64,000 bases of DNA from contig OX637402.1 in the NCBI GenBank assembly GCA_951799425.1, positions 260,501-324,500 of the forward strand. Direction: 5' to 3'. The DNA is from Ilex aquifolium. Taxonomy: Eukaryota > Streptophyta > Magnoliopsida > Aquifoliales > Aquifoliaceae. The notes beneath the pieces are model-generated. The model did no database searches. It had not been told where the DNA came from and saw only the letters and a list, made by a program, of their open reading frames with translations. Within the stretch, counting starts at the first letter, position 1, and every line of letters begins with the position of its first letter. The position numbers and the translations under genes are program-made. Below, in pieces: positions 1,881 through 61,726 of the stretch.

Positions 1881-3517
1881 TGCTTGATGGTTTCCATTGT
1901 ATTCCCTAATCTCCAGACATCATCCCTCAATATGTGTATGACTTATAGGGATGGGGGAGTGTCACTCTCCCTCGAAATGATGCAAGAATGGGGAAATGGA
2001 ATAATGGTGGGTGAATGAAATTGCGTGTGTGTGAACAAAAGTGCTCCCTAAGCACAGGGAGTCTTTTGAGTGTCGTGTTTTACTTGGAAATCGTATTCCA
2101 AGGTCGTCTCCTCAGGGAATGAGGTGAATCGTGTTAAAGGTGATTTTGGTAAAAAGGGTAAAGTGTAAAAATCTTTTGTTGTTTGAAGTTTGGTTTGTGA
2201 TGTGTATCTTGATAAAAAATGAAATGAGAAACGTGTTGGCTAATCCGAAGGGTTCATTCCAATGGGAATGCCCCCTCAACTCGAGACCTTCTCTCAATGG
2301 TGTTTAGATGTTTGATTGATTCGTGGGAAGCTCGGGACTAATGTGGAGGTGAGGATTCAAGCATACCCCGTGACAATGCCTATCAAGAGCTCACAACCAC
2401 GTCCACGCTCAACTCAGTCAAACCGAACCAACGTACACTGCGAGGGGGAAAGAAAATGAGTTGAAATGGCATACCCAATAGGAGGTCTCCCTTGGATTAG
2501 CCAACCTAAAAGCTTAGCTACTATACTTAAAGCAAATACAATCATAGAATGGAAAGACATTGTAAAGGAATGAAGATTTGAGCTAAGTTGATGCAAGAAA
2601 ACGTACACTACGAGAAAATGCATTTAAGACCCATCTTAAAGCTTGAAAATGAAGAACTTCAATGCATTAATGGTGAAATCCAAAGTACAAGACTAAACTT
2701 TAAATGTGCTTGTACTAAATGACATTAAAGACACTAAACAAAGCTTAAACAAGTGTTACAACAGATTACAAGGCAATGTATGGAATAAAATGCAAAAATA
2801 TTTACTTCTCTCTCTAGCACTATTCATCTTCTTCCTTGGACTCCCTCTCTCTATCTTACAATCCCTCTCTTTCTAGTAATGAATATTGGTTAAAAAAATG
2901 AGCTTGCCAAAAAAATGTCCATGGAGCCTCCCTAGCTTGTGTGATGTGATCCCAATCAATCGGGGCTGCACACCCAACATCTTTTATCTCTTCTCTCCTC
3001 ATTAATGTCCAACACTCCAAAAGTCCAAGCATGAGTGTATGAGGGGATGTCTGTTTGTAAGGCATGTCAAGGATGAGTGGGAGAGTGCTTGGTAGGACCG
3101 CCAAAGTTGCAGAGCTTGAGATGCAGAAATTGTCCTGGCTCAGTAAAACCTACAGGTAGGTCGATGAAAACCTACTGGTAGATTTCACTCCAGTGAGCAA
3201 AACCTATCGGTAGGTTTGCGGTCGGTGCAGGACCAATAGCTAAAACCTACCGGTATATCCTACTGGTAGGTTTTTCCTTGTTTTGCAAAAATCTTGGTTT
3301 CTCCACCTTTCAAGCAAACATCAAGCCACCACCTCATCTCCAATCAACTCAAGCATCATGATAGGGCCTAATAAGCATCATTTGAACCCCTTTTCCTGTA
3401 AACACATCAAAACACCATTATATGTCTGGACAGTGCAATTCCGCTCATTTAAACCACAAAATCAAATGTAAAAGGGATATAAATGCACATAAAATATGCA
3501 ATGTTTTGTGCTAATCA
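1881..3517 (-). repeat. E1 5' LTR (Athila, TGATTAGC subfamily)
   Basis: 1637-bp LTR. In sense orientation it begins TGATTAGCACAAAACATTGC at 3517 and ends CCATCAAGCA at 1881, directly before the primer site. Conserved blocks shared with the other Athila LTRs here include the GGTTTGACTGAGTTGAGCG region (near 2410-2430) and GGATTAGCCAACACG (near 2238-2252). The right edge (3517/3518) opens into the gag of E2, so E1 is nested in E2. Its second LTR and the partner target duplication lie outside the window. Confidence 0.88.
3145..3275. promoter_or_regulatory. E1 LTR palindromic box cluster (AAACCTACCGGTAGGTTT type)
   Basis: Five near-palindromic boxes: 3145-3161, 3167-3185, 3199-3217, 3242-3260 and 3259-3275. 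Each is a variant of AAACCTACCGGTAGGTTT. In sense direction the cluster is followed by GCCAGGACAATTTCTGCATC, the degenerate counterpart of the word that follows the boxes in other Athila LTRs. Function unknown; a binding site for a dimeric protein is inferred from the symmetry. Confidence 0.7.
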
Positions 3518-4702
3518 CTGCCCACACCATGCTTTTGAAAATTGGACTTTGGTAGGATTTTTCTATGATTCTTTGCCCACTAGACTACGTCAGCTTGTTG
3601 AAATAGTGGCTCAAGGAGAGTTAATGGGAAAAATTCTAGAGGAGGCATTCAATTTTTTTGACACCATATACGAAAGTTCTCAGATGTGGGACTTAGCCTC
3701 TCCTACCATTGTTGAAGCCAAACAATCTACTTCCTAAGGGGGTAAGTATGTATTGAAAGAAGATGATGACCTGAGAGAGAAAATGACTACCTTGTCTCGA
3801 AAGCTTGAAGCTCTAGAGATGAAGAAGGTAAATCAAGTTGATGTTGGTCCTCCCATAGAACAAGTGTGTGAGATCTATGCGCTGATGGGACACCCTACTG
3901 GGGAGTGTCCTACCATTCCGGCATTCAAAGAAGTCTTGTTGGAACAAACAAATGAAATTTTCAAATTTAACAAGCCTTATTCCAACCCTGGTGGAATCAC
4001 ACAAATTTCAGTTGGAGGAACACACAACCAACTCCAATGAATCCACAACAAGGTTCATAACCACCACCTCAAAGACCTCTTGCATATCAACCATACCAAC
4101 CACCACACGAGAAAAGTCTTTAGGACACATTGAATCAGTTCATGCAAAGCCAAATGAACTACAACAATCATTCCACTCAGGCTTTCAATGACTTCAAAAC
4201 CCAGACCACTTAGTCCTTTGAAGATCTCAAAAGTCATATTCAAAAGCTGACCTAGTCAATGACCACACATGAGAAGGGCAAGTTTCCTGCTCAACCAAAA
4301 CAATTACATTGTCAATATCATATGGGAAATCCTTCAACCCTGGAAACCCCACAAGAACAAGCTCAAACTATCACTACACTGAGAAGTGGCAGGGTAATTG
4401 ACAAAACCATTAGAGACATGTTAATTCCAAAGCCAAAACCTAAGTCAATCCGATTCAATGAACCAGTTGAGCCTAAACTTGTGATTGAAAAGGAATCAGT
4501 TCGTGTCCTATTCCTGCTCCTTTTCCTCAAAGACTCAAGAAAGCACAAAAGTTGAATAACCATGCAGAAATGTACGATCTCTTTAAGCAAGTCAAAATCA
4601 ATATTCCATTTCTGGATGCAATCAAACAGGTTCCTTCTTATGCCAAGTTTCTAAAAGACTTGTGCACAATCAAAAGAAGCCAAAATGTTCAGAAATGAGC
4701 CT
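3518..4702 (+). pseudogene. E2 Athila-type gag, C-terminal part, broken
   Basis: The 5' half of this Gag is missing because E1 is inserted at 3517/3518. The reading opens mid-capsid (CPHHAFENWTLVGFFYDSL), continues to a coiled-coil-like stretch at about 3765-3830, then a knuckle-like motif CEIYALMGHPTGEC at about 3870-3912 in which the second Cys is Tyr. The linker TITTLRSGRVIDKT lies near 4370-4410. A TAA at 3735, two frame changes (near 3990 and 4200) and a TGA near 4697 break it. It leads directly into the E2 protease. Confidence 0.85.
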
Positions 4703-4704
4703 TC

Positions 4705-8127: not shown

Positions 8128-9851
8128 TGATTAGCACAAAATATTGCATAGTTTATATGCTTTTTATGCCCTTTTATACTTGTTTTTGTTGTGAATTTGG
8201 GGAGAAATGTGTTTAATCTACTCTTTAATGAAATCTTGTGTGAATGTAGGTGAAGAATTGCAAATGGCTTGAGTTAAGCCCCTATTGAAGTGCTTAAAGA
8301 CAATGGAGTTGAAGGAATAGATTAAAGGAAGGATTGGAAGGTGAAGAAACCAAGATAAAGGCAAATTTGATGAAAACCTTTCGGAAGGTTGGGTCATAAA
8401 CCTTCCAGAAGGTCTGCACTTTGAACTGCCTAATGCCCTACCAAAACCTTCTAAAAGGTTTTGCCTTCTGGAATAAACATTTCGGAAGGTTTGGTCCACT
8501 AGACAACTTTCTTCTCTGTTCCTGAATAAACCTTCCGGAAGGTTTCCATCGACCTTCCGGAAGGTTTTACCCAGAATTGCCTGACAGCCTACAACTCAAG
8601 CTCTGCCACTTGGGGGTCCCACCTAACATTCTCCCACTTTTTCCCTGACATTCCTTACACATCTACATGCCTTCCTACACCTAGGCTTGTACTTTGGAGG
8701 CTCAAGCATTAATGAGGGAAGCCTCGGAAGTGCAGGGTAGGCCTGTCCTAGCTTGCCAAAAGCCATCAGCTCAACCTCCTATGGATGGGAGGCTTTTCAC
8801 ACACCTAGGGGAACCTCCATGGACAAAAATGCATGCATACATTACAGATAATTCAGCATTGTAGGGGGATATAGAGAGAGAAGCTAAAGGAGGAAGACAT
8901 AATTTTAGAGAGAGAAATTAGATTTTTAGCATTTCTTCTACCCATTTCACTTATAGTCTTCTGTAAGAGTCTTGTAAGCTTCATTTATTGCACTTAATGT
9001 CATTTATTTCAAGTGTATTACAATTTTAGTTAGGTATCTTTCAATCTACCATTGTTACATTCAAGTTTTACATTTCATGCTTTTTAGTTGGGTATTAAAT
9101 GCACTTGTTTTTGTAGGTTTCACTTCTCGTCACTTCAATACAAGTTTAACTTCCATTTCAATACCATGTCTCTTTACTTCGTGTATGTTCTTGCATTAAA
9201 TATGAGTAGCTAAGCTTTAAGTTGGCTAATCCAAGGGAGAATTCTTCTTGGGTATGCTAAATCAACTCTTTTTCATTCCCCCTCGTAATGTAAGACAATT
9301 TGGTTTGACTAGGTTGAGTGTGGACGTGGTTGTGAGTTCTTGATACACCGTAGACTTGTCACCGGGTATGCTTGAATTCTCACCTCCATTTTGGTCCTGC
9401 GCTTCCTACGAATCAATCGAACGTCTAGGCACCATTGAAAGAATGTCTTGAGTTAATTTGACATTCCTATTGGAATGACCTTTTTGGATTAGCCAACACT
9501 TGTTTCCATTGCATTTTCTACCATAAACTTCACTCACCAAAACAATATATTCAAAATATTTTTACACTTTTCCTTTTTTTACCAAAATCACCTTCAAAAC
9601 AATTCATCTTCCTTCTCTGAGGAGATGACCTTGGAATATGAATTCCAAGTAAAACACGACACTCAAAAGTCTCTCTGCGTTTGGGGAGTACTTTTGTTCA
9701 CACACACACACACACACATTTCATCCCACACACATGTTTACCCCATTTCTTGCATCATTCCGAGGGAGAGTGACACTCACCTATCCGTATAAGCCATACA
9801 CATATTACGGGATGATGTTTGGAGATTAGTGTCGACGGAATAAGTCTAGCA
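8128..9851 (+). repeat. E3 5' LTR (Athila, TGATTAGC subfamily)
   Basis: 1724 bp, from TGATTAGCACAAAATATTGC to AAGTCTAGCA. It holds six palindromic boxes, a TATA-like GGATATAGAGAG near 8869, a 13-bp inverted repeat (TTGGCTAATCCAA at 9222-9234 against TTGGATTAGCCAA at 9484-9496), and a CA run at about 9700-9718. Sequence between 9600 and 9850 matches the 3' parts of the E1 and E6 LTRs. The last bases before AGCA (AAGTCT) differ from CCATCA in E1 and E6, a sign of mutation at the terminus. Confidence 0.88.
8373..8568. promoter_or_regulatory. E3 LTR palindromic box cluster (AAACCTTCCGGAAGGTTT type)
   Basis: Six boxes: 8373-8390, 8398-8414, 8443-8462, 8475-8492, 8528-8545 and 8551-8568. The fifth is a perfect 18-bp palindrome. 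The cluster is followed by ACCCAGAATTGCCTGACAGC, and by GGGTCCCACC about 50 bases on. The same box type recurs upstream of the E3 ORF3 (17112-17206). The role is inferred only. Confidence 0.75.
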
Positions 9852-9855
9852 TTTT

Positions 9856-17111: not shown

Positions 17112-17206
17112 AAAACCTTCTGGAATGTTTTCATTACTAGACAGTGGTGCCCCAGTAGTAAGCAAAACCTTCCAGAAGGTTTTGATCGACCTTCTGGAAG
17201 GTTTTG
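17112..17206. promoter_or_regulatory. E3 pre-ORF3 palindromic boxes, same type as its LTR
   Basis: Three boxes: 17112-17131, 17164-17183 and 17188-17206, all variants of AAAACCTTCCGGAAGGTTTT. They end in GGTTTTGCCCAGAATGC, close to the words after the LTR boxes (GGTTTTACCCAGAATTGC in E3, GGTTTTGCCCGAATTGC in E6). They lie about 290 bp before the ORF3 start. A pyrimidine-rich leader (about 17280-17365) follows, but no clear TATA box. Confidence 0.7.
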
Positions 17207-17492
17207 CCCAGAATGCTAAAAACGAGGGTTTTAAGTTAGAATTTTTCGAGAAACCCTTCACATTTCCCCCAAATCTCAAGCTCCCAAGCTCTCTCCTCTC
17301 TTTCTACTCTTTTCCAATCTTCAAAACACTTCACCCAAGCTCCAAATTCTTATTTTTCTCTTGATTAGGGTTGAGTATTGAGTTGATTTTGCCGAAAATC
17401 TTGGCGTTCTCACAAAACCCTAGTTTCCCAAGTTCTTCCCCCAATTTCAAATCTCTCATAGGGTTTCTCCAAAACCTTGACATTCCATTGCT

Positions 17493-18780
17493 ATGGCTCG
17501 TGAAGCAAAGACCTCTCTCGACACGTTTGAGCCCACTGAATGGGTTGTGATGTGGGTTTTGACTATCCTTGGTGTTGGGGCACTACTGGCCCTCATGGCC
17601 CGCACCAAGAGAACGGGTACGGAGTCCCCACCACCCGCGGGCACTAGCTCCCGGAAAAGGAATGTGGAGGGCCCAAGTAGCCAAGACTGGGATGAGAGAA
17701 GAACGAAAGCTAGACACGACGCTCGGAGACAAATGATAGATGAGAAAAGCGTCACGTGTGAGATGTATGTGGACAAGATCTCTCTTGGGCCAAATGATGA
17801 AGTCGTGAGGGTGATCGAAGGAGATGGATTAGGTATTTGGTTTGAGGAGGTGAAAGGCTAGAATTTGGGGTTGTGTAAAGAGTTTTAAAAGAAATTGTCG
17901 GTGTTTGGCGAGGAGGGTAGTAGGCTAAGGACCAATGTATGGCGGAAGACATTTGAGGTGACCCCTGAGTTGATTTCCAAGGTGATGAAGTATGAGAGGC
18001 CTCCCTCTACTACCCCCGTCTACCTACATAATGTTGAAGGGGGTAGGACTCTAGCTGACTATGTGAGGCTCACCTACGAGGACCCGACCACTTTCAAAGG
18101 GACAACTTTGGTCAGGGGCCTCAAGCATTCCTATGGGGTGATGAACAAGGTGCTTCACTGCAATCTGATGCCTCGGGGCTCGGAGAAGAGCCTGAATATC
18201 CAGAAGCTTGCCCTCCTCCACGCGTTCATGACGAGGAAAGACGATCGATGTGGCGTTATTGATATGGGAGGAGATGAGGGAGTTCGCCAAGCCTGCAAAG
18301 CCGAAGGCAAACCTTCCCTTTGGAAATCTTATCATGCGAATGTGATCCCACAACAATGTGAAGGCATACGCACATGACATGCTGCTACCTCCGGAGACTG
18401 GTGCCATCAAAAAATTGAGCAGTGGTAAGAGGGTTGCCAGGACAGGGGGTGAAAGAGCCAAGGCATCAGGACCGGGGACATCATCCTCTGAGCTTGCCAC
18501 ATCTGACCCAACCCGCACTGTGCTGTAGCGTCTGGACGCCCTGGAGGCCACTATGCATGGGCTTTCACTGATGGTGACGAGACTGTTCCAGTACACTTTC
18601 CCAGGCGAGCCCATCCCCGGTGGGCCTCTGCAGCCTCCAACTGGACCATCGACCTCAGCTCTTATACCTTTTACGGCTGCTGAGGTGGGAGAGACTGATG
18701 ATGATGAGGAGGGGACTGAGGATGACATTGAGGAGGAGGATGCTAGAGAGGACGATGATGGAGACAAGGGTGATGACTAG
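17493..18780 (+). pseudogene. E3 ORF3 (Athila third ORF, plant transposon protein type)
   Basis: Third ORF at the position where Athila elements carry their so-called env-like gene. It starts MAREAKTSLDTFEP and has a hydrophobic stretch near residues 20-35 (WVVMWVLTILGVGALLALM), a possible membrane segment. A basic region follows, two in-frame stops (17859, 17889), then a long open part (KTFEVTPELISKVMKYERP, LHNVEGGRTLADYVRLTY). A frameshift near 18270 shifts EMREFAKPAKPKANLPFGNL to another frame. The end is strongly acidic (DDDEEGTEDDIEEEDARED). NLPFGNL matches SLPFGTL in E7 ORF3. Function of the family is not established. Confidence 0.75.
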
Positions 18781-19050
18781 ATGATGGGATGTTTTTTTTT
18801 TTTTTTTCAGATTGTACACAGTAGGGTTAGTTTTGTCGGCCCAGTAGAAGCGTCTTTAGGATTTTGGGCCGTTTTGTTTTGAACTCTAACCTTTTGTATT
18901 GAACTTTTGAAATGATTAATGAAAAAAAAATGCCACAGTAGTTCGTTCCATCTTGCCCAAGTTCATTTCATTAATTGCATTGTGATTTTTATATTTTGAA
19001 TGTTTTTTTATTTACTTGTATGAATGAGTTGTGTTAGCTTATATCTTATT
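18781..19050 (+). other. E3 3' UTR remnant
   Basis: Non-coding, beginning with a T run (18793-18807). TTGTCGGCCCAGTAGAAGCG and the following 200 bases match 32300-32540, which in E6 runs straight into a polypurine tract and 3' LTR. Here the match ends near 19050, so the tract and LTR are missing. Confidence 0.75.
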
Positions 19051-20983
19051 TGTGGTCTGAAAACGCTTCGAACTGCTCACCATATAGATAGTGACGCCAA
19101 GCCTTCAAGGCAAAGACAATGGCCGCCAACTCCATGTCATGTGTGGGATAGTTCTGCTCGTGGTTCTTTAATTGTCGAGAACCATAAGCCACCACCCTCC
19201 CGGACTGCATCAAAACGCAACCAAGTCCTTCCTTCGAGGCATCACAAAACACCGTGTACCTCTGTCCCCTTTCTGGGACTATTAGAATAGGAGCTGAAGT
19301 AAGCCTCCTCTTCAACTCCTGGAATGTCTTCTCACACGAGTCATTCCACTCAAACTTGACCTCTTTCCGGGTCAATTTGGTCATAGGTGTGGCTAGTCGA
19401 GAGAAGTCCTCAATGAACCTCCGGTAGTACCCTGCCAACCCCAAGAAACTAGGTATCTCGAAGACTGACTTCGGCCTCTCCCAATTCATGACTGCCTCAA
19501 CCTTCTCCGGATCCACGGATACACCCGAAGCCGACACCACGTGTCCCAAAAACTTCACCTCCGTAAGCTAAAATTCACATTTGCTGAACTTGGCGTACAA
19601 CTGGTGGTCTCTCAAGGTCTGGAGAACAATCCTCAAGTGACCCTCATGCTTCTCCTCAGACGTGGAGTAGATCAAGATGTCGTCAACAAAGACTACGACA
19701 AACTGATCTAAGTAGGGTTGGAACACCCTATGCATGAGATCCATGAATGCCGTCGGGGCATTCGTCAACCCAAAAGGCATGACGGTAAACTCGAAATGCC
19801 CATATCACGTCCTAAACGCAGTCTTAGGGATATCCGCCTCCCTAACCCTCAACTGATGGTAACTGGTACGGAGATCTATCTTGGAGTAGACCCGCGCCCC
19901 TCTCAATTGATCAAACAGGTCATCAATCCTCGGGAGAGGGTACCTATTCTTAATAGTAACCCTGTTCAACTGTTGGTAGTCTATGCATAGTCGAAGGGTC
20001 TTGTCCTTCTTCTTGGCAAACAGCACCAGAGCGCCCCAAGGTGAAGTGCTCGGTCTAATAAAGCCCCTGTCCAACAACTCTTGCAATTGGACCTTGAGTT
20101 CTTGCAACTCAGCTGGAGCCATTCTATGTGGAGTCATAGAAATAGGCGATGTACTAGGGTGCAACTCAATGGTGAAGTCTACATCCCTATGTGGAGGTAA
20201 TCCCGGTAATTCATCCAGAAAAACATCCTCATACTCACAAACCACCCGAGGTAGACCCAACTCCTGTCTCGTCTCGTCCTCCAGGGTGAGGCTTGCTAGC
20301 CAACCCATCAACTGTCCATGCCATCGAGAGTCATACACGGCTTGGGGCAAAGCACCATGCTTTTCCCCTTGGAACTTGAAACAAACATCCTCCGGTGTGT
20401 TGGCAGTGACCCTCTTACGATCACAATCAATGACGACTCGATGTGCCGTCAACCAATCCATCCCAAGAATGACATCAAACTCCGACATGTCCATGACCCT
20501 AAGGTCCACGGTGAGTAGAATTCCCGAGATCTCTAACTCACAACCCCGACATATCTGATCAATACTTACCCTAGCTCCTAGGGGAGAACTCACATGCAAT
20601 GGCTCTTTCAATGTCTCAACCTCTAAGCCCAAATCTCTAACACATGATGCAGTAATAAAAGAATGAGATGCACCAGAGTCAAATAACACCCTTGCCCATA
20701 AGCGAGAGAGTAGAAATGTACCCAGAATGACTGACTGATCCACTGGCTCAGTCTGAGGTGTAATGGCGTAGACACACCCCTGGGTCCCCGAAGTCCCGGC
20801 CTGCATGCCCTGTCCTCGGCCTCGACCCATGCCCTGGCCCATCTGGCCTGATAGCAGAGTCCCTGCTCCTGAAGTAGTAGGGGCCTGGGTAGTGCCCTGA
20901 GACTGGAAATGACTTCCCTGGCCCATGGTGGGGTAGGGATGAACAAAATGCGTCTGTGCATGTCCCACCGAAGACTGGTCCAT
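19046..20983 (-). pseudogene. E4 pol: protease, reverse transcriptase, partial RNase H
   Basis: One minus-strand frame from 20983 down to 19046 with only two stops. Protease: [13 protein letters not shown] (DSG) and [20 protein letters not shown]. Reverse transcriptase: [67 protein letters not shown], catalytic [24 protein letters not shown]. RNase [41 protein letters not shown]. The stops are a TGA near 19803 where FRTRYGH is expected and a TAG near 19570 where CEFWL is expected; each is one C-to-T or G-to-A change. Catalytic residues are intact. Confidence 0.94.
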
Positions 20984-21574
20984 AGCTCTGAGATCCCTGT
21001 CGCTGAGGAAAATCCCGCTTCAGATGCCCCGGTTGGTGACAATGAAAACAAGTCCTTTGCCCTGCCTGGTAGGAAGGCCTCTGATTTCTCCCGCCTTGGG
21101 AGGATTGACCCTGGCCTTGGCCTTGGCCTTGATAGCCACGGCCCTGTGGAGTCGAAGTCCTTTGCTTCTTCCCCGAACTTGAAGAAAAAGATTGGCCCTC
21201 CTTCTTCTTATCTTTACCACCCGCTTCTCGGATGTTCCGTGCGTCGTCCATCTCTCTCTCAATGGCCATAGATGTCTCGACCATCAAGTCCAAGTCTTGC
21301 AGGAGAAGTCCCACAATTTTACCCCACATGGACAATTTCAGACCATCCTGAAACTTTCTCACCTTGGCCATATTTGTGGCCACATAATCGTTGGCGAAAC
21401 GTGCTAATTCCGTGAACTTAGCCATGTATTCCAACACTGTCATTATCCCTTATTTCAAATCTAAGAATTCCCGAGCCTTAGCTTGCCGGACAGACGCCGG
21501 AAAGTATTTGCCCATGAAAAGCTCTTTAAACTCCTCCCACGTCATCACCTCCAAATTCTTAGAGGCCTTTGCCC
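20984..21574 (-). pseudogene. E4 gag, C-terminal part
   Basis: Continues the gag interrupted by E5. WEEFKELFMGKYFPASVRQA is followed by a TAA (near 21450), then MTVLEYMAKFTELARFANDY, a Gly/Gln-rich linker, and the knuckle [14 protein letters not shown], in which the last Cys is Phe. A frameshift near 20990 separates it from the pol frame. Chromovirus gag and pol are normally one ORF, so this shift is a lesion. Confidence 0.9.
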
Positions 21575-21579
21575 AATCC
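21575..21579 (+). repeat. Target site duplication of E5, left copy
   Basis: AATCC, matched by AATCC at 28607-28611. Removing 21580-28606 and one copy restores the E4 gag reading frame across the junction, which confirms the element ends. Confidence 0.92.
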
Positions 21580-23538
21580 TGATTGATGAAAAACCTTGTT
21601 GTTTCCAACCCCTAAACATCACCATTTGACATGTGTATATGGCTTATGTGTGAAAGAGAGTGTCACTCTCCCTCGGGGTGATGCAAGAGATTAGACAACA
21701 ACGGATTGGTAGAAAATGGAATGAACAAAATGTGAAATGAAATGCAGGTGTGTGAACAAAAGTGCTCCCCAATCGCAAAGAGTCTTTTGTGTGTCGGTGT
21801 TTTACTTGGAAAAGTATTTCAAGGTCGTCCCCTCAGGGAAGGAAAATTCAAGTTGTGTGAAGGTGATTTTGCAAAAGGTAAAGAAAGTGAAAAATCTTTT
21901 GTTTGTGTTTTGTGAGTGAAGTTTTTGAACGAAAATGCAATGAAAAAAAATGTTGGCTAATCCAAAGTGGTCATTCCAATGGGAATCCCATCTCAACTCC
22001 AAACCTTCCTCCAATGGTGCTTAAATGAACGATTGATTCGTGGGAAGCTAGGGACAAGATGGAGGTGAGGGTTCAAGCATACACCGTGACAATGCCTACG
22101 GTGTATCAAGAACTCACAACCAAATGGAGGTGAGGATCCAAGCATAACCCGTGACAAGGCCTACGGGATATCAAGGACTCACAACCACGTTCACTCTCAA
22201 CACAGTCAAACCGAACCACCGTACACTGAGTGGAGGAAAAAAGAAGAGTTGAAATGGAACACCCAAGAGGAAATCTCCCTTGGATTAACCAACTTAAAAT
22301 CTAGCTATTCATGTTTAAAGTAAAAGCATTTATAATGTAAAGAGACAAGTAAAGGAAATGAAAATGAAAATGAGATGAAAATGAAACTTAGAACTTGTAT
22401 TAATGCTAGGAAATGGTAAACTACAAAGAGAAGTTCATTTAACACTAAAATGGAAATGTTGCAGAGAAGACATTTGAAAACCAGCAAAGATTATGGAAAT
22501 GCAAGAACATTGAATTAAACTTGGTTACACTAGAATTAAAAGAGATTACAATGCAAGAAATAAAGATTACAAGAGAACTACAACTTACTGCAATGAAAAG
22601 GGTGAAGAAAATGCAAAAACATAAATTTTATCTTCCTAGCACTATTCATCATCTTGTTCACCAAAACTACTCATAAGCTTTGGTAGCCACCCCCTCTATA
22701 CCATGTGTAAATGCTGAATATAATGGAGAGTTAGCCTTCAATTTTCGTGCATGATGGTACCCCCTTAGCTGTGTGCAGGCCTCCCATCAATAGGAGGCTG
22801 AATGGATGGGTGTTGCAGGCTAGGACAAGCCTCCCCCAGGCTACCCCTTCTCTCTCTCGTCCCCCTTAATGCCCAAGCCTTCAAAGTCTTCAAGTAGGGT
22901 GTAGGAGGCATGGTTGTAGGGATAAAATGTCGGGCTAGGTGTGGGAGAAGTGTAGGTGGGACCCCCCAAGCAAGTGGAGCATGATTGCAGGCGATTCTAG
23001 GCTGTCAGGAGATAGTACCGGTACTGTACCATACCGGTACTTCGAACGCCAGTAGCTTCGGTGTACTGATACCGGTACGGTTTCTCTACTCCGGACCAGT
23101 CTTCGTAGAATTGGAGTAACTCTTGATCTAACCATCCGATTGAGCTGCAATTTTGACACAATACATAAGAGATCCAGATCTACAACTTTCATGTTTTAAA
23201 CTTTTTCAGATTCTAAGTGGATAATGGTAAAAATGGAGGAATACCGAGGCTCTATTTCTAGATGGTGTGGCTGCTGGTGCTTTTGTTCCCAAACTCCAAT
23301 ACCTCCTTGATTTCTTCACTTTTAAGCCTTCAAATCTTCATGTAATGTGTCCATGCCCTCACCACACATCCATCATAGTTGCAAGGTCCTAAAATCAATC
23401 ATTTAAGCTATAAAAACTTGCAACATTGAAAATTCAACATTATTCATAAAATTGACTAACACTACGTACTTATATGAAAATGTTGAGTTAAAATGAATGT
23501 AATGAGGCCTTCAAATATACAATATTTTGTGCTCATCA
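21580..23538 (-). repeat. E5 3' LTR (Athila, TGATGAGC subfamily)
   Basis: 1959 bp; sense orientation begins TGATGAGCACAAAATATTG at 23538. It is preceded on the sense side by the polypurine tract. It contains a tandem duplication of about 65 bp (about 22060-22195), each unit with a small hairpin (CACCGTGACAATGCCTACGG and CCCGTGACAAGGCCTACGGG). It differs from the 5' LTR mainly in the palindromic boxes and a few point changes. Confidence 0.93.
23014..23080. promoter_or_regulatory. E5 3' LTR palindromic boxes (AGTACCGGTACT type)
   Basis: AGTACCGGTACT at 23014-23025, ATACCGGTAC at 23031-23040 and ATACCGGTACGG at 23069-23080, with a single TTCGAACGCC at 23041-23050. In sense direction they are followed by GCCTAGAATCGCCTGCAAT. 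The cluster differs from that in the 5' LTR of the same element (28061-28147), which has extra boxes. Confidence 0.7.
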
Positions 23539-23554
23539 CACCCCCCAACTTAAG
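23539..23554 (-). other. E5 terminal polypurine tract
   Basis: Minus-strand CTTAAGTTGGGGGGTG directly abuts the 3' LTR. It is the expected plus-strand primer of Athila elements. Confidence 0.9.
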
Positions 23555-25256: not shown

Positions 25257-25275
25257 CTCACCCCCCAACTTAAAC
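25257..25275 (-). other. E5 internal polypurine tract
   Basis: Minus-strand GGTTTAAGTTGGGGGGTGAG corresponds to the E3 tract at 15250. A second similar run (GTTTAAGTTGGGGGGGTGT on the minus strand) lies at 25438-25455, next to a poly-pyrimidine stretch at about 25352-25397. Confidence 0.6.
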
Positions 25276-25721
25276 CATGCATTGTCCTCAATGCACAAGG
25301 AATCACGCAATGAGAAAAATGAAAGTAACTTGGGAAATGAAATACCCCCTCTTTCTTTTTTTTTTTCTTTTTCTTCTTTTTTTTTTTTTTCTTTTTGATA
25401 TAAACATTAAAGGAAAAAAAAAAAATAAGTTTATTTACACCCCCCCAACTTAAACTCACACATGATATTGAATGAGATTTTCTACTATGATGCTCAAAAT
25501 GAAATGAGTCCAAATTATGGAGAGGTAAACAACTTCTACACTACAACATTAAGAAAATAAAAATATAACAATACTCACCACTATACTACAACATTAAGAA
25601 AAGGAAAATATGATAATTAAAAGAAATCTAACTATTACGTACATGGAAACAAAATAAAAAGGGCTCATGTCAATCCGGCTGCAATTCAGATATGCGCTTG
25701 CGCCCATTGATTTTTTTGATT

Positions 25722-26623: not shown

Positions 26624-26627
26624 AAAA

Positions 26628-39502: not shown

Positions 39503-39520
39503 TTAAGTTGGGGGGTGAGA
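39503..39520 (+). other. E7 internal polypurine tract
   Basis: TTAAGTTGGGGGGTGAGA, the counterpart of E3 15250 and E5 25257-25275, about 440 bp after pol. Confidence 0.6.
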
Positions 39521-40420
39521 ACTATAGTTCATATTAAAATTTTTTTTTGATCGTATTGCGTATTTTGTCTTGTATTTCATATTTATACAGTCTTTATAGT
39601 ATATAAAAAAAGAAAAAAATAAAAAGAAAAAGAAAAAAAATGATGATCATGTTTTTAAGGTAGCTTCAATCGTCTATGTGACTGACAGACATTAAAGAAC
39701 TAGATAGAGTGTCTTAAGATTAGCAAGCATGGATGGTAAGATTTTTTTGGTACAGTTTAGACGTTTTACGCACATTCCCATCTGATGTGCATGTTGTGAT
39801 AATGAGAAAAGCAAAATTAGTGAGAAAAACTGAAATCCGAGAAGAGCAAGCAAAACCACTGTGTGGCAGAAGCACTTTTCCTAAACGTCATCATGCCAAA
39901 CAACTGGGTGCCTGTAAACAGTATGGCATGATCTTTCACATGAAGGAATACAATTAGTGTTCTGAACCAATTTCCGATCGCGCACTCGATCGATTAGACT
40001 GGATAGTGTATGGGCAGAGTAAGGATTTTCCTGAGACGTCATACTATACCAGTCCGGTACTTACACATTATGGGCGACAAGAAGTTGGAAGAGTCATTGA
40101 TAGTCCAACTGACATGGAGACAAGCCAAGGCTTGAATTAGAATTTCTTGACAAAACTATAAAAAAACATGTTTTTAGGATGAAAGCCAAAGGTCCGAACT
40201 CTTTTGTAAAAAGTGTAAATACCTTTTTATTAGATGTACAAAGTATTTTTGTTAAAATAAAGATGATGGGCTAAGTAAGGAATGTCCTAAAATACCAACG
40301 AAGTTGTAGCGTGGGTAGGGACTTATCCTGAGACGTCATGATTTTCCAAGTCCAATTTGTGCACGTAGTCTTGTTTTAATATGTGTATATAAATGTGTAT
40401 AAAATTTTGATTTTTATTTT
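39521..40420 (+). other. E7 spacer before the ORF3 promoter region
   Basis: No supported ORF. The word CCTGAGACGTCAT occurs twice (near 40030 and 40330) and an A-rich run lies at 39605-39640. The open frame at 39733-39957 has no recognisable motif and no counterpart in E3. Confidence 0.5.
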
Positions 40421-40694
40421 GGCGTTCGAACGCCAGTTAACATTCGAACGCCAGGAGCTCACAGTACTTTGACCTCTGCAAGACATCAAAAGTACTGAGA
40501 GCACCTTTCTTTCGAAGGACAGATGAACGTTCGAACTAGGACCCCACGTTCGAACGCCATTTTCACGTTCGAACTAGAAAAGCTTACAGTACTTTGATCT
40601 CTGCTGGACATCAAAAGTATTGGGAGCAACTTTCATTCGAACGAAAGTTTCGAACCTTCTTTTAAAATTCCTCCTATCCCCGTTCGAACGCCAG
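40421..40694. promoter_or_regulatory. E7 pre-ORF3 palindromic boxes (GGCGTTCGAACGCC type)
   Basis: GGCGTTCGAACGCC (perfect, 40421-40434), CATTCGAACGCC (40441-40452), GAACGTTCGAAC (40525-40536), CACGTTCGAACGCC (40546-40559), CACGTTCGAAC (40564-40574), TTTCATTCGAACGAAAG (40631-40647) and CGTTCGAACGCC (40681-40692). A second repeated unit lies between: AGTACTTTGA with its inverted partner TCAAAAGTACT, at about 40465-40498 and again at about 40581-40621 (partner degenerate). The E7 LTR uses the same TTCGAACG boxes. Confidence 0.75.
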
Positions 40695-40720
40695 TCACGT
40701 TTGAATGATGGTTGTCTGGG

Positions 40721-40728
40721 TATAAATA
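40721..40728 (+). promoter_or_regulatory. TATA box of a putative internal ORF3 promoter
   Basis: TATAAATA, reading on as TATAAATACCT, lies 29 bp after the last box and 211 bp before the ORF3 ATG. The E7 LTR has the same TATAAATACCT at 44488 after its boxes. The following leader is CT/CA-rich, like a plant 5' UTR. Confidence 0.6.
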
Positions 40729-40938: not shown

Positions 40939-42060
40939 ATGCCCCCAAGGATGAAAATGCCCGCTAGGCGAAAGGCGGCCAACCAAGAACCCAACTTTGA
41001 GGAGGAGGTGATCGAGCAAAGGGAGGGAAGGCCACCATTGGTCCGAAGATACGATCGCACTCGCTTCCCCAGTGCTCTCAAGGCCAATAGGTACGAAAAT
41101 TTCTTTCAAAACCAAGTCATTATTTGTGAACGTACTTGAGTTGTCAAATTTTGCGAACTTAGGTAATTTGGCCAACATGGAGGCCAGGGGTTGGAGTATG
41201 TATTTGAGGAATGGTAGTGACGCTGTGCAAGAATTGGTGAGGAAATTTTATTCCAATACCGAGATTGTGAACGGGCTATCAAGACATATGTGAGGGGGGC
41301 TCACATCAACGTAGACGAGGATTATATTTTGGAGTTGAGGGCCGTACCACGAGTACCAAGGCCTAGCTACCCCCCGAGGAAGAATGTGGAGTTGGACGTG
41401 GTGGGAGTAGAGTTGACGGGATTTTCGACATTTACATGGGGAGGAATGCGGTTCTTTAGGCAAGGGGAGTTAATGGACAAATAAAAGATGCTCAATTTGA
41501 TTGTCGTCTCGAACTTTGCCCCCATTGGACGCAAGAACGAGATCTTCTTGGAGATGGCTCAATTATTATACGCGATAGGAAGGAACCAATGCATAGACCT
41601 CCCATCCTTGATACTGACTGAGATGATGAAGGGATGTGATGTAAAGAGGAATTCACTCCCCTTCGGCACGCTAGTGACAGAGATATGCTTGGATTGGGGA
41701 GTGCAGGTCAGGAGAGAGATGGAGGTGCTCAAGCCGATGGGATTCTTGAACAAAGTGTCATTCTGAAGGAGCCAATGTCATAGCAGAGGGCCAGCAGTAA
41801 GGCAAGACGAGCCACCAGCCCAACACACCAATGAAGTTCAAGATGCCTTGGACGCTGAGGAGGAGAAAGAGGCTGAGCAAGCCCATGCAGAGACCAGTGA
41901 CCGACGAACACTACTAGAGATCATGCTTGGCATCGACGCCAAGAAGATGAGATTCTTCGTTAGCAAGAGGAGATTCTCCATCTATTGCGAGGTGGAGCTG
42001 GAGGACCTTCAGGCTCTGGAGAGGCGAGAGAGTGAGAGTGATTTTTTCACTTGGGATTGA
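40939..42060 (+). pseudogene. E7 ORF3 (plant transposon protein type)
   Basis: ATG at 40939 (MPPRMKMPARRKAANQEPNF), a basic start with a following acidic patch. About 370 codons in all. Conserved-looking parts: RRYDRTRFPSALKANRYENF, then after a frameshift (near 41130, corrected near 41290) NMEARGWSMYLRNGSDAVQE and LVRKFYSNTEIV; then VELTGFSTFTWGGMRFF, MAQLLYAIGRNQCIDLPSLI and SLPFGTLVTEICLDWGVQV. Stops at 41482 and 41764. The C-terminus is Glu-rich. It resembles the PF20167-type protein of Athila and SIRE elements by motif memory; E8 and E12 carry related proteins. Molecular role unknown. Confidence 0.75.
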
Positions 42061-43836: not shown

Positions 43837-43850
43837 TAGGTTGGGGGGTG
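43837..43850 (+). other. E7 terminal polypurine tract
   Basis: TAGGTTGGGGGGTG, directly before the LTR start TGATGCATAG. Confidence 0.88.
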
Positions 43851-44032
43851 TGATGCATAGTTAAAATTAACATTTCACTATGCACTTATAAGACTAATTA
43901 TGCTTTGATGGAGTTTAAATGGTGACATTTCAGGACAAAGTTGAACAAAGGACTAAAGTCAATGAATACCAAACTTTCAAGAAACACCCACGTGTTATGG
44001 AAGAGAATTGGAGAAGGAGGAAGCAAAGCATC

Positions 44033-44372
44033 AACGTTCGAACGCCAATACACGTTCAAACGCCATCTTGATATAATTGAGGGCCCCCAGGACATTGCTA
44101 GGGTGATGGCACGTGGCATGTTGTAGCTACTCCCTGAGAAGAACAAGGGCTACTTGAGTACAACGTCCGAACACCACTCTACGTTCGAACACCATCTTGA
44201 ATTATTTGAGGACCTCCAGAAGACTGCTAGGGTGATGAGACGTGGCTTGTTGCAGCTATCTACTGTGGGTGACAAAAGCCACTTAAATACCACGTTCAAA
44301 CTCTAGCAGCGTTCGAGCGCCCATCAAAGAAGACAGTCTTCAATGTTCGAACGCCAATAACGTTCGAACGTT
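44033..44372. promoter_or_regulatory. E7 LTR palindromic boxes (TTCGAACG type)
   Basis: AACGTTCGAACGCC (44033-44046), CACGTTCAAACGCC (44052-44065), AACGTCCGAACACC (44162-44175), TACGTTCGAACACC (44180-44193), AGCGTTCGAGCGCC (44309-44322), AATGTTCGAACGCC (44342-44355) and AACGTTCGAACGTT (44359-44372, perfect). Degenerate copies recur in the inverted arm at about 45028-45190. Confidence 0.75.
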
Positions 44373-45205
44373 GTTCCCAGACAGGCAACTGGAAGACTAG
44401 ATCTCCATCCAGATTTTTGCGCATTCACTTGGAATTTCAGCACCTAGAACTATTCTTTTACTCTCCTTTTACCCCCTCCTCCTTGCCTATAAATACCTTC
44501 CATTGGAGCTTGTTACGAAAAAATATTTGGAAGATGAAGAAACCCTCCTAATGTAACTAGCTTTCTTTTACTTTCATTATTAGTTTCATTAGCTTCCATT
44601 TTAAAATTTTATTTCTTCACTTAGAAGAGTGAAACTCTCTCACATTTCTAGCTCTCTTGTAGCCTTGAAGGGTGGGTACTGATTCACTCATTCTTCATTG
44701 AAGATAAGCTTATTGTGTAGTGTATTTTTATCTTGTAAGTCCTCTACTTGGAGGGATGAGGATCACTCACTTTTCTAGCTTTCTAAAGGCCATGAAGAGT
44801 GAGTAGTTTCTCGTTCACTCTTTAGTAAGAGGTGATGGACATGTATAAATCATTGGTAAGTTATTTTTGTGCATTTCATTTATGCTTAATGCTTTATCTT
44901 TTGATTGCTTATTGAATGATTGAATGCATCTAGCAAAGCTAAGGTACTTTGTACAATCATGAGTCCTTTCTAAGACAAGATGACTCTTGGCATAGGAGGA
45001 TTCATTGATTCATTGGTTCTTTGATGGGCGTTTGAATGCTGTTGGAGTTTGAACGTGGTACCCAAGTTATTTTTTTCACCCACAGTAGATAGCTACAACA
45101 ATCCACGTCTCATCACCCTAGCAGTCTTCTGGAGGTCCTCAAATAATTCAAGATGGGGTTCGAACGTGGATTGGCGTTCGAACGTTGTGCTCAAGTAGCT
45201 CCTCC
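44147..45205. repeat. Inverted repeat inside the E7 LTR
   Basis: Arm 44147-44333 and arm 45018-45205 are reverse complements with scattered mismatches. For example CTTGAATTATTTGAGGACCT (from 44197) answers AGGTCCTCAAATAATTCAAG (from 45133), and CTATCTACTGTGGGTGA (from 44256) answers TCACCCACAGTAGATAG. The loop is about 680 bp and includes the TATA box. A transcript through both arms could fold into a long hairpin. Confidence 0.85.
44488..44495 (+). promoter_or_regulatory. E7 LTR TATA box
   Basis: TATAAATA in the context CCTATAAATACCTTCC, 116 bp after the last LTR box. It shares TATAAATACCT with the putative ORF3 promoter at 40721. Confidence 0.65.
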
Positions 45206-50330: not shown

Positions 50331-51946
50331 TGATTTGCACAAAACATTGCATATTTCATGTGCCAATACATTCCTTTTTCACTTGCTTGTGGGGATTAAA
50401 TGATTAGAATTGTGCTACTTAAGCTATTAACGAAGATTTGTGGTGTTTGCAGAAAAAAGGTGATAATTGGTGCTTCTTAAAGCCTTCTCAAATTGTTTGA
50501 GGTGAATGAGGATGAAAGGATGGCTTGAAGATAGCTCAGGAGGTGAGGAAACCAAAGAATCAGCAAAAACAGGAAAAAACATGCCGGTAGGCCATACCGG
50601 TATGTTTCAGCTACTGGAGTTCGACATACCGGTAGGCCATATCGGTATGTTATGCTGAAACAGCCCAGATTCTGCATATCAGGCTCTGTCATTTTGAGGG
50701 TCCCACCAAACATTCTCCTACCTGCCCCTACCACTCCCAACACCATGGACATCCCTCTTGCACCTTATCTTGGACTTTTGGAGCCTTGGTGATCAATGGA
50801 GAGAGAGAAGAGGAGAGATACTGGGTGTGCAGACAAGTTCTGCACCTACCCTATCCAGCCCACTCTTTTGCAGCCCTATGGATGGAGATCACATCACCTA
50901 GCAAGGAAATCACTCCATGGACGTTTTTGAGGCTTCTAAGAAGAATATACACACAGATGGGAATATACATTGTAATATATAGAGAGAGAGTCCAGTAAGA
51001 AGATGAATAGTGTTAGAGAGAGAAGTTGAGATTTTTGCATTTTCTTCCACACATTGTCTTGTAATTTCATGTAAGATCTTTCTAAGCTTTGTTTAAAGTC
51101 TTTAATGCCATTTATTTCAAGTTGTTTCAAGTTTAATCTTCCATTAAAGCTTTCACCATTAATGCTTCTATGCTCTTCAATTTCTTAGCTGTAAATGGGT
51201 ATTGAATGCTTTCTCTTTTAGTTTATGTTTTCTTGCATTATCCTAGCTAAAATCTTCAATTGCTTTAGAATGTCTTTCATTTACATTGTTGTCTTTTCTT
51301 TAATCATGAGTAGCTAAATCTTTAAGTTGGCTAATCCAAGGGAGACCTCCCCTCGGGTATGCTATTTCAACTCATCTTTTTTCCTCCCCTCGGTGTACAG
51401 TGGTTCGGTTTGACTGGGTTGAGTGTGGACATGGTTGTGAGTCTTTGATATTTTGTAGACTTGTCACGGTTTATGCTTAGATCCTCACTTCCATCTCGTC
51501 CCGAGCTTCCCACGAATCAATCGTTCATCTATGCATCATTGGAGGAAGGCTTCGAGTTGAATTGGCATTCCCATTGGAGTGAACCTTTGGGATTAGTCAA
51601 CACTTGTTTCCCATTCAATTTCATCATAACACAAATCACAAACCAACCTCAACCATCAAAATATTTTACACTTTCTTTTACCAAAATCGCCTTCTACACG
51701 ATTCACATCATTCCCCGAGGAAATGACCTTGGAATACCTCCAAGTAAAACACGACCCGCAAAAGTCTTCTTGCTCTTGGGAAGCATTTTTGTACACACAC
51801 ACACACACTTTCACACATTTCATTTTGCACCATTCTCTTGCCCTTTCTTTTGACATCATTCCAAGTGAGAGTGACACTCCCCCCTTTCACACACATTGAG
51901 GGATGATGTTAGGAAGATAGGATACTACAAGGGATTTTTTCAAGCA
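50331..51946 (+). repeat. E10 solo LTR (Athila)
   Basis: 1616 bp from TGATTTGCACAAAACATTGC to TTCAAGCA, flanked by ATAAT at 50326-50330 and 51947-51951. No primer site or polypurine tract adjoins it, so it is a solo LTR left by recombination between two LTRs. It keeps the conserved blocks (TTGGCTAATCCAAGGGAGAC near 51328, GGTTTGACTGGGTTGAGTG near 51407). Confidence 0.92.
50579..50651. promoter_or_regulatory. E10 LTR palindromic boxes (CATACCGGTATG type)
   Basis: ACATGCCGGTAGG (50579-50591), CCATACCGGTATGTT (50592-50606), CGACATACCGGTAGG (50622-50636) and CCATATCGGTATGTT (50637-50651). The pair is duplicated as GGTAGGCCATA..GGTATGTT. It is followed by GCCCAGATTCTGCATATC, the conserved word after Athila LTR boxes. 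Confidence 0.72.
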
Positions 51947-52689: not shown

Positions 52690-53040
52690 GAATGAGGTGA
52701 GACCCACCCATGTGCACTCAACCCGAGTCCACCACGACTCCCTTTACATGCTATTGCCATGTATGCAAAACCGGGCTACCTAAGCCCCATGAATGAGATG
52801 TAACTCATGTACTCAACCCGAGCCCTCCCTGGCTCCTCAACACAATGCTAATGCCAACGTGTTTGATGTATCATGAAATGAGATGTGACTCATTTATGCA
52901 CTCACCCCGAGCCCTTCCCGGCTCGACAACACAATGTAAATGCCAATGTGTACGACATGCCATGAGTGAGATGAGACTCAATCATGTAACACACCCCGAG
53001 CCTCCCCGGCTCCCACACACACAATGAAATGTCAATGTGT
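52690..53040. repeat. Tandem repeat array in the chromovirus solo LTR
   Basis: About four degenerate units of 75-95 bp, each with an ATGAATGAGATG-like word, CTCAACCCGAGCCC and CCCGGCTC. The E4 LTR has the corresponding text once (about 30145-30225). Confidence 0.8.
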
Positions 53041-59867: not shown

Positions 59868-59872
59868 ACCAC

Positions 59873-61726
59873 TGCTTGATGGTTTCCGTTGTGTTCCCAA
59901 TTCTCTGTCAATAAACCCTCAATGTGTAAGACTTATATGTGTGGGTGAGTGTCACTCTTACTCGGATTCAATGCAAGAAATGAGAAACGAAATGTGTGGA
60001 ATGAATGAAAATGAGATGTACAAAATGTGTGAGTGTGAACAAAAGTGCTCCCTAAGCATTGAGAGACTTTTGAGTGTCATGTTTTACTTGGAAAAGTATT
60101 CCAAGGTCGTCTCCTCATGGAATGAAGGGAATTGTGTGAAGGTGATTTTGTAAAAATGAAAAGTGTAAAATCTTGTAGTTGGTTTTGGTGAGTTTTGTTC
60201 TTAATGAAAATGCAAGAAAATAAGTGTTGGCTAATCCGAAGAGGTCATTCCAATGGGGATGCCAAATTAACTCGAAACCTTCCTCCAATGGTGCCTAGAT
60301 GCTCGATTGATTCGTGGGAAGCTCGAGACGAGATGGAAGAGAGGATCCAAGCATAACCCGTGACAAGTCGACGGGATATCAAAGACTCACAACCTTGTCC
60401 ACACCCCAACCCAGTCAAATCGAACCATCATACACTGAGAGGGGGAAAGAAAATGAGTTGAGATAGCACACTCAAGAGGAAATCTCCCTTGGATTAGCCA
60501 ACTAAAAATTCAGCTACTCATGAAAGTAAGAAAGAATTGCATAATGTAAAGAGACATACTAAAGGAAAGAAGATTAGAACTTAGTTTAATGCAAGAAAAC
60601 AAAAACTATGAAGTGAAATATGTTATACCCATTTTAAGCTAAAAAATGAAGATAACTTGCTGCAACAATGGTGAAATCTAAAATGTAGCATTAAACTTGA
60701 AATGTACTTTAAGTAAATGACATTAAAGATAATAAATGAAGTTTACACATGTCTTACAATAAACTATAAGTGAAAGGATGGAAGAAAATGCAAAAATCTA
60801 AGCTTTCTAACTACTATTCATCTTCTTCCTCCTTGGACCTTTCTATGCTTAGGTAACCACCCCTTCAATGGCTTGTGAATGCTGAATATATGGAGAAGAG
60901 ATGATGTATTTTCGTCCATGAGGCACCCCTAGCCTGTGTGCAGGCCTCCCATAAATGGGAGGTGAGTTGATTGGCTTTTGACAGGCTAGGAAAAGCATAG
61001 CCGGCACCCATCATGGCTGCCCCCTTCTCTCCCATCCTCATTAATGCCATTGCCTCCAAAGTCCAAGCATGTGTGTTGGGAGGCATGTAGATGTGTAAGG
61101 GATGTCAGGGGACAAGTGGGAGAGTTAATGGTGGGACCCACAAGCAAGTGGAGCATGAGTTGCAGGCGTTCTGGGCATTATGGGCAAAACCTACTGGTAG
61201 GTTTTCATCATTCTACCGGTAGGTTTTGGCTACTAGAGTAAAAACTACCGATAGGTCTTTCCGGTAGGTTGCCTGATCTGGACCAGTTTTCATAGAATTG
61301 TCATAACTTTTGATCCAACTGTCTGATTGAGCTGAAATTCTGACAAAATATAGAGGAAATCCAGATCTACAACTTTCATGTTTTTCACTTTTTCAGATTC
61401 AAAGTGGATCATGGTCAAAAATGAGGAAAACCGAGGTACTGCCACCAAATGGTGCGGGTGCTGGTGCCTATGTTACCAAGTATCGATACCTCCTTGATTT
61501 CTTTCACTTTTAAGCCTCCAAATCCCCATGTAATGTGTCCACATCTTCACCACTCCTCCATACTTAGTTGAAATTTTCCAAAATACATGATTTACGCTAT
61601 AATTACCTGCAACATCGAAATTTCAACATTATTCATAATTTCGGCTAACTCTAAGTACTTAAATGCAAAGCTAAGTTAAAATGCATGTAATGAGGCCTTT
61701 AAATATGCAATATTTTGTGCTCATCA
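59873..61726 (-). repeat. E11 solo LTR (Athila, TGATGAGC subfamily)
   Basis: 1854 bp. Sense orientation runs from TGATGAGCACAAAATATTGC at 61726 to AACCATCAAGCA at 59873. Flanked by ACCAC at 59868-59872 and 61727-61731. No primer site or polypurine tract adjoins it. It sits at the start of E12 gag. Close to the E5 LTRs over most of its length, but with a different box type. Confidence 0.93.
61186..61270. promoter_or_regulatory. E11 LTR palindromic boxes (AAACCTACCGGTAGGTTT type)
   Basis: AAAACCTACTGGTAGGTTTT (61186-61205), TTCTACCGGTAGGTTTT (61211-61227), AAAAACTACCGATAGGTC (61240-61257) and TTTCCGGTAGGTT (61258-61270). In sense direction they are followed by TTTTGCCCATAATGCCCAGA. The box type equals that of E1, not of the more closely related E5 LTR. 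Confidence 0.74.

Follow-up and report, generated by a model that had tools for sequence, protein, structure and literature searches.

Arrays of palindromic boxes in the LTRs and linkers of Athila-type retrotransposons of Ilex aquifolium: candidate sites for dimeric factors at two putative promoters

Athila-type retrotransposons of Ilex aquifolium carry arrays of short palindromic boxes at two places: in the long terminal repeats (LTRs) and in the linker that joins pol to the 3′ LTR, where most arrays precede an additional open reading frame (ORF) of Pfam family PF20167. The elements lie in a stretch of 64,000 nucleotides (contig OX637402.1, positions 260,501 to 324,500), here called the window. 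The source genome measures 800 Mb, and the loci numbered from L011 onward are stretches taken from that same genome. The position of the boxes is fixed, a single box type is found per element, and different families have different types, as a sequence-only reading of the window had stated. Colinear LTRs may differ in their box blocks. On balance we lean towards the reading that dimeric, probably host-encoded, factors act on these enhancer arrays, or dyad sites, at two promoters of the element, and that the arrays are exchangeable as cassettes. We infer protein binding, the activity of both promoters, and the nature of the factor from features of the DNA.

The LTRs were defined as follows. Seven window LTRs begin with the motif TGAT[G/T][A/T]GCACAAAA[C/T]ATTG (up to three mismatches), which was not met in 100 shuffles. 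A sequence like TGGCGCC(A/G)TTGCCGGGGA, which we take to be the Athila primer-binding site (PBS), occurs three times in the window with 0–2 mismatches, behind LTRs A, B, and D; at that tolerance it was not found behind the remaining window LTRs. Reverse transcriptase (RT) and integrase domains are present in the window. The RT pieces match RVT_1 (PF00078) and no copia-type RT family, a distinction that we assume to separate the superfamilies, and in L018 the RT precedes the integrase, which is the gypsy order. When the window Athila LTRs are aligned in the sense direction, they share a U5-side block, the sequence GGGTCCCACC, and a GCCCAGA-like word ahead of GGGTCCCACC. In the seven LTRs the palindromes are in U3, i.e., between the LTR start and the GCCCAGA-like word, with GGGTCCCACC downstream. 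That a conserved word and then GGGTCCCACC follow the cluster had been noted before, and this order holds in all seven, except that the GGGTCCCACC copy of LTR A is degenerate. An eighth LTR, that of element E7, is of another LTR type, and GGGTCCCACC was not found in it.

The element names of the sequence-only reading were mapped to coordinates by inference: E1 corresponds to LTR A, E3 to B, E5 to C and D, E6 to E, E10 to F, and E11 to G. Clusters are given on the strand of their LTR. LTR A (1877–3517, minus strand) is recognized by its start motif and by alignment, with the PBS-like site at 1859–1876 next in the sense direction; its type II cluster (3147–3272) consists of four near palindromes of the form ACCTACC..GGTAGGT, plus ACCGGT at 3249–3254. 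LTR B (8128–9855, plus strand) has the start motif, the PBS-like site, and the alignment in its favor. It bears six boxes of the AAACCTTCCGGAAGGTTT kind, type I, at 8375–8566, and then the conserved flank (8569–8623), with ACCCAGAATTGC at 8569–8580 and GGGTCCCACC at 8614–8623. LTRs C (21573–23538) and D (26624–28606), both on the minus strand, are the 3′ and 5′ LTRs of E5; type III boxes, GTACCGGTAC, are at about 23012–23078 in C and at about 28059–28143 in D, whose PBS is at 26606–26623. LTR E (32587–34278, plus strand), defined by start motif and alignment, has a type I cluster at 32818–32985. LTR F (50331–51946, plus strand) carries CATACCGGTATG-like boxes at 50591–50638 and GGGTCCCACC at 50698–50707. 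In LTR G (59873–61726, minus strand), type II boxes are at 61188–61225 and GGGTCCCACC is at 61130–61139. The E7 3′ LTR region (43841–44373, plus strand) comprises a polypurine tract at 43841–43850, the LTR start at 43851, and type IV boxes, TTCGAACG, at 44036–44373; a TATA box follows at 44488–44495. To summarize, each of these eight LTRs holds about 2–8 exact or near palindromes some 185–550 bp into the LTR, and the clusters start about 185–500 bp in (about 200 bp in L054). The same number had been claimed for all Athila-type LTRs complete enough to judge. It stands for the window LTRs but not for the genome, where Athila-type LTRs with few or mixed boxes occur, e.g., L020 at 6573 and C12 at 19632.

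The box arrays are not a product of chance. Clusters of at least three like palindromes number five in the window (17 boxes), against none in each of 30 local dinucleotide shuffles, and six in the 50-kb stretch beside it, L031–L035 (32 boxes), again with none in each of 30 shuffles; both stretches were chosen without regard to boxes. The palindrome clusters first described from the letters of the window are thus real and pass the shuffle check. When single LTRs are compared with their own shuffles, B and E stand clearly above, D does so by two measures out of three, and for A, C, F, and G taken singly there is no clear excess. The window has 40 exact palindromes of at least 12 bases, many of them unrelated to the boxes. 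Across the genome, the exact type I word AAACCTTCCGGAAGGTTT occurs 3382 times and the exact type II word AAACCTACCGGTAGGTTT 1543 times; the reversed words occur nowhere in the genome. The type II word had been ascribed to E1 and E11. No exact copy exists in the window, where the word is a sum of imperfect copies, and it is the genome count that bears it out. In addition, the most repeated 10-mer of each U3 stretch was sought without reference to the boxes. Of 32 stretches, 13 have as this 10-mer a word with palindromic symmetry at 5 or 6 of 6 pairs; at most 4 do so in the shuffles (five each). Among the remaining U3 stretches, several top words are off-centre box pieces, and some stretches have no visible box. 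Exact type I boxes on contig C1 served as anchors for choosing loci L011–L030, so that type frequencies among them are biased.

The linker clusters make the observation larger than first noted, as does a cluster in a chromovirus-type LTR, considered below. In element B, three type I boxes are at 17113–17204 (plus strand), followed by GCCCAGAATGC at 17206–17216. About 290 bp downstream of the boxes lies a broken PF20167-type ORF (17493–18456, plus strand) that is 58–63% identical to the ORF of L018. In E7, the boxes at 40420–40705 (plus strand; type IV, CGTTCGAACG) had been taken for LTR boxes; they are in the linker, with a TATA box at 40721–40728, and the LTR has the separate set described above. 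The E7 ORF is in pieces (40939–42060, plus strand), and its segment 41485–41766 matches PF20167 with an E value of 9e-9 and 35.9 bits, below the curated cut-off of 45. An extra polypurine-tract-like TTGGGGGGTG of E7 was seen by eye at 39508–39517 (plus strand), between pol and the linker boxes. The intact ORF of L018 is a member of PF20167 (Transposase_32, putative plant transposon protein), with 82.1 bits and an E value of 6e-23 against the cut-off of 45. The ORFs of element B and E7 are tied to the family by their similarity to L018; the first 126-aa piece of the element B ORF had no Pfam match. By eye, the intact protein (L018:5367–6644) has a hydrophobic start plus a basic region, and a proline-glutamine run near its end. 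A PDB sequence search gave no relative (one chance match, E 0.2).

PF20167 loci were also sampled without regard to boxes. Over the cut-off, 150 scored matches were listed, of 6661 first-look candidates; from these, 16 loci that come from all parts of the list and retain the domain start were examined over 1 kb upstream. At least two boxes of one dyad type were found at 9 of the 16 loci, a figure that is descriptive only, because it was this sample from which types VII and VIII were defined. Upstream of the ORF, imperfect boxes of type VII (CAGCGCCTAGGCGCTG-like) are present at L038, L039, L042, L044, L045, L046, and L047. L051 has seven type VIII boxes, L052 has two copies of ACCGTCCGGACGG, and L040 has one box. 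No accepted box was found in the 1 kb upstream at L041, L043, L048, L049, L050, and L053; two GATCGATC palindromes in L050 were not accepted as boxes.

The two places of an element agree in box type. In all 12 elements compared, the boxes of the LTR and those of the linker had the same type, which was type I in eight, type II in one, type IV in two, and type VIII in one (exact P 1.7e-4 for full agreement given the margins), where the type I rows, being related elements from one anchored sample, are not fully independent. The comparison covered elements in which both places were assignable, with the stretches set by hand from maps. The type I elements are window B (with its 5′ LTR), L011, L014, L018, the second element of L022, L025, L026, and L028; type II is represented by L037 with L022, and type IV by window E7 and by L036 with L021. 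L018 has 14 LTR boxes, a single one of which scored as type II; the inner cluster of L011, which lies after gag and before the 3′ LTR, was treated as a linker cluster. Three rows were dropped: L019, a near-copy of L018; L017, where no link between the LTR and the ORF could be established; and a PF20167 remnant with which L028 begins, with two weak type IV-like sites only. The type II case (L037), one type IV case (L036), and the type VIII case were fetched after prediction. Type VIII, GCGTCCGGACGC, was predicted from the linker of L051; the 3′ LTR was then retrieved, and four boxes of this type were present at about 200–320 bp from its start. On C1, the first 100 type VIII matches include at least five same-strand triplets (starts 3221682, 8846272, 9549381, 10510036, and 16822097). 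Their outer clusters are separated from the inner one by about 3.4 and 7 kb, distances that suit an LTR-linker-LTR order, and in each triplet at least one outer pair of boxes is 80–81 bp apart. These outer clusters are probably LTRs. A separate locus, C1:18701487–18724974 (G000), is a head-to-tail series of two-box and five-box type VIII clusters with a period of 6689 bp.

Types I and II are related by a change that respects the dyad. The pattern AAACCTWCCGGWAGGTTT has 4998 genome matches with A or T at the distinguishing pair, of which 73 (1.5%) are one-sided, as against about 2161 expected under independence. In a sample of 243 boxes (up to five mismatches; window plus 19 loci, near-copy L019 dropped), the distinguishing pair is complementary in 233, compared with 169 expected from the margins. 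Changes at the other eight pairs look one-sided, mostly C to T or G to A. The core departs from CCGG in 94 of the 243 boxes, and 64 of these 94 are CCAG (23), CTGG (17), TCGG (17), or CCGA (7). Since the distinguishing pair changes symmetrically and the other pairs on one side, types I and II differ by a symmetric change, and copies within a family decay. Two earlier claims are sharpened thereby: the variation of copies at the centre is largely decay of CCGG, and symmetric substitution holds between types I and II but not within families, where eight of nine pairs are one-sided. The core is CCGG in types I, II, III, and VIII and TCGA in type IV; type VII has AGCGC half sites. Types I, II, III, IV, and VIII all have a palindromic centre. 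Dyads at a fixed LTR place and before a second ORF, with matched types, fit sites for a dimeric factor at two promoters.

Might the boxes instead be by-products of tandem duplication and gene conversion, devoid of a binding function, with symmetry and matching stemming from copying? Linker and LTR clusters do share stretches, e.g., 50 bp at 90% identity between the linker and the LTR cluster of element B; a GCCCAGAA-like word stands behind the linker boxes, as in LTRs, in 4 of 11 linkers examined; and the spacings 22, 31, and 53 bp recur. Copying, however, creates no new palindromes in each family, and boxes with a one-sided distinguishing pair are rare, as given above. Conservation falls sharply outside the 18-bp box (in units chosen by the box). 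The own LTR is the best match for 2 of 11 linkers only (L025 and L037), so that recent copying within a single element is rejected. Identity is 0.891 in boxes versus 0.843 in spacers over 28 LTR pairs, a weak, box-selected estimate. Taken together, these points leave the by-product explanation very improbable.

The box block changes as a cassette between colinear LTRs. The LTRs of L011 (type I), of L020 and L028 (type III), and window LTR G (type II) match one another on both flanks, and it is within the block that they differ. When 20 LTRs are placed on a tree made from non-box sequence, at least five changes among four box types are needed, where three is the minimum and the shuffled mean is 8.9; the box types nonetheless cluster strongly on this tree. 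The 20 LTRs come from 29 starts with enough sequence, nine being dropped for lack of anchors; some type calls are close, types I and II were scored permissively, and C12_19632m is a tie. Exchange may be the process behind the differing cassettes.

One box type is common to Athila and a chromovirus. The element of L031, which has a tRNA-Met-type PBS, a gypsy-like pol, and a chromodomain-like end (by eye), carries type III arrays with gaps of 13, 16, and 31 bp, 51 bp upstream of a TATA box in both LTRs. Type III boxes with gaps of 13, 16, or 29–32 bp are found in the Athila LTRs D, L020, and L027, and LTR C has a degenerate set. The window itself has a similar array in a chromovirus-type LTR (29612–29730, minus strand; element type assigned by eye), made up of GTACCGGTACGCGTACCGGTAC and variants, with a TATA box at 29533–29540 and a tRNA-Met-type PBS at 29311–29323. 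Sharing across lineages points to a factor available to several lineages, or to capture of the module. Because one box type with its own spacing is common to Athila and a chromovirus, a host factor, probably one of several, is more likely to read the boxes than an element product. As a separate observation, half sites like TCCAGAAGGTTT or AACCTTCTGGA, i.e., half of a type I box, were seen by eye inside type III arrays (L031:2260–2540, L015:2140–2380, and L027:8330–8500).

Control by an element-encoded factor is possible but not favored. Here, an element-made protein, e.g., the PF20167 product, would bind the element's own boxes at both places, its specificity changing along with them in the manner of VANC. 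The box type is indeed uniform over LTR and linker in the compared elements and different between families, a linker array ahead of the PF20167 ORF would suit autoregulation, and VANC motifs are likewise repeated and evolving together, according to PMC5735166. Three findings speak against it: type III boxes with the same spacing are present in the L031 chromovirus, in whose stretch no PF20167 similarity was detected; the PF20167 protein of one type II element, 57% identical to that of L018 (type I), falls within the 51–71% range of type I copies (near-copy L019 left out); and L011 has both clusters though RT, integrase, and PF20167 similarity were not found there. We therefore regard an element-made factor as rather unlikely. 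The earlier suggestion of a dimer site co-evolving with a fast-changing protein fares accordingly in part: the dyad pattern fits a dimer site, but the type III boxes of the chromovirus speak against strict co-evolution with the element's own protein, and so does the unexceptional type II protein.

The favored reading, that of dimeric and probably host-encoded factors, can be put as follows. The boxes are predicted to be arrays of dyad-symmetric binding sites, and the arrays would make up the upstream portion of two promoters that one retrotransposon carries: an LTR promoter that would drive gag-pol, and an internal promoter for the PF20167 ORF, which lies after pol and ahead of the 3′ LTR. As a cassette the array would be exchangeable, of one type at both places of an element, and related LTR backbones would carry different cassettes. 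In six places (L020, L021, L023, L024, L028, and the E7 LTR), among which the LTR start is located for L021 and E7 only, the distance from the end of a type IV array to the TATA box downstream is 91–115 bp. The linker arrays of E7 and L036, also type IV, end at most about 20 bp from a TATA box. The conserved GGGTCCCACC contains GGTCCCAC, which fits the TCP consensus GGNCCCAC. Among the papers listed for the box words, none had a title concerned with plant elements, and those listed for LOB/LBD offered nothing of use; we name no factor.

Several results weigh against this reading. No clear TATA box is present in window type I and II LTRs except F, so the promoter role of those arrays is less certain, and none was noted behind type I linker arrays. 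At PF20167 loci, 7 of 16 lack two or more boxes in the 1 kb examined. The other eight pairs of the 243-box sample show no clear excess of complementary change, and the dyads of type VII are imperfect, their centre being variable and, in many copies, non-palindromic. As to spacing, 162 of 167 gaps in types I and II (36 distinct vectors, related by descent) are 21–24, 30–32, 43–46, 50–55, or 74–75 bp, with a best period of 10.3 bp (R 0.75). This helix-like spacing is not shared by type III (13/16 bp) or type IV (17–18 bp). As a general rule helical phasing is rejected, because types III and IV differ and the larger distances could arise by adding 22 and 31. At L013:9414–9707 there is another dyad type, TAGGTACCGGTACCTA-like, with 7 boxes; its box is a different one, but its spacing is the 22/30/52 bp of types I and II. 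Finally, when folded as RNA, each of the eight box regions tested is far more stable than its shuffles (z −3.8 to −10.6); two control pieces gave +0.4 and −1.5.

Given this folding, the arrays might instead act in RNA. Hairpins formed by box transcripts might feed small-RNA pathways, or boxes might change as a means of evading small RNAs, which has been proposed for the Sireviruses of maize. In Sireviruses, palindromic parts of the LTR are described as hotspots of small RNAs by PMC10760457, which cites Bousios et al. 2016, and the want of a clear TATA box behind type I arrays would suit such a role. Yet any palindrome array folds well, so the folding result does not discriminate. Furthermore, a hairpin loop needs no palindromic centre, yet the centre is palindromic in all the types named above, many type VII boxes excepted, and type IV arrays are just upstream of TATA boxes at both places. 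We consider action in RNA unlikely, and continue to favor dimeric factors acting on DNA.

Some further features of the material may be recorded here. The E5 element (21573–28606; LTRs 95% identical) is inserted in the gag of a minus-strand chromovirus-type element (window 18000–29800) and is flanked on both sides by GGATT, seen by eye and likely a 5-bp target duplication. Window positions 52805–53040 are a tandem repeat of 89-bp units in 2.7 copies. Viral contigs scanned for the PBS gave six loci, none similar to the window, and those scanned with the window RT gave no match.

Repeated short regulatory boxes in U3 upstream of the TATA box are familiar from the LTR promoters of Tnt1 and Tto1. 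To our knowledge, those boxes are not known as dyads with family-specific exchange, nor do they recur in a linker. The closest published parallel is in Sireviruses (Ty1/copia), whose RM boxes, according to Bousios et al. 2010 (PMC2829016), are palindromic, differ per element, and form clusters that begin 200–400 bp into the LTR, upstream of the TATA box; additional copies in the linker precede the ENV gene. The boxes described here resemble them in being repeated palindromic motifs at a similar depth in the LTR, with further linker copies. Here, however, the hosts are Ty3/gypsy elements, Athila-type and chromovirus, of one genome; the cores are mostly CCGG/TCGA dyads, with AGCGC half sites in type VII, unlike the CGG-CCG signature reported there with one exception, Tnd-1; and the linker ORF is PF20167, in a place analogous to ENV. 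Colinear LTRs with different cassettes and box sharing across lineages are seen here, and a TATA box is clear for some types only. Against the at least eight copies per element that serve as the RM criterion in that text, L018 has 14 LTR and 9 linker boxes and LTR F has 2–3. The Arabidopsis VANC/VANDAL anti-silencing system offers another likeness, according to PMC5735166: a short, repeated, family-specific non-coding motif, evolving together. The VANC21 motif YAGTATTAY, in contrast, forms same-orientation arrays and has a proven binding protein, whereas here the motifs are dyads and binding is predicted. The sequence-only reading knew of no description of such a module in Athila LTRs. This holds in the literature searched, mostly papers outside subscription, where the presence of the boxes in Athila or chromovirus, the other cores, the differing cassettes, and cross-lineage sharing were not found described, but the same layout had been published for Sireviruses. 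That is, the layout is known in Ty1/copia, and its occurrence in Athila and a chromovirus of one genome appears to be new.

A bolder proposal goes further. The arrays may constitute an interchangeable address system, in which a dyad cassette would be read at both promoters by a cognate factor and families would switch cassettes as a unit, by recombination within or between lineages, so that each could be switched on separately; in the boldest form, an element-encoded factor would change its specificity with the cassette. We offer this as a speculation and hold it to be doubtful. Among plant retrotransposons, Athila and Sirevirus are the two lineages most noted for an additional ORF behind pol. 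That both, members of unrelated superfamilies, show this palindrome layout at two places suggests a shared need in regulation, namely to control the late ORF separately. Different cassettes on similar LTR backbones in one genome amount to a natural series of promoter specificities. Which factor reads the LTRs, and what switches families on separately, becomes testable with a few oligonucleotides.

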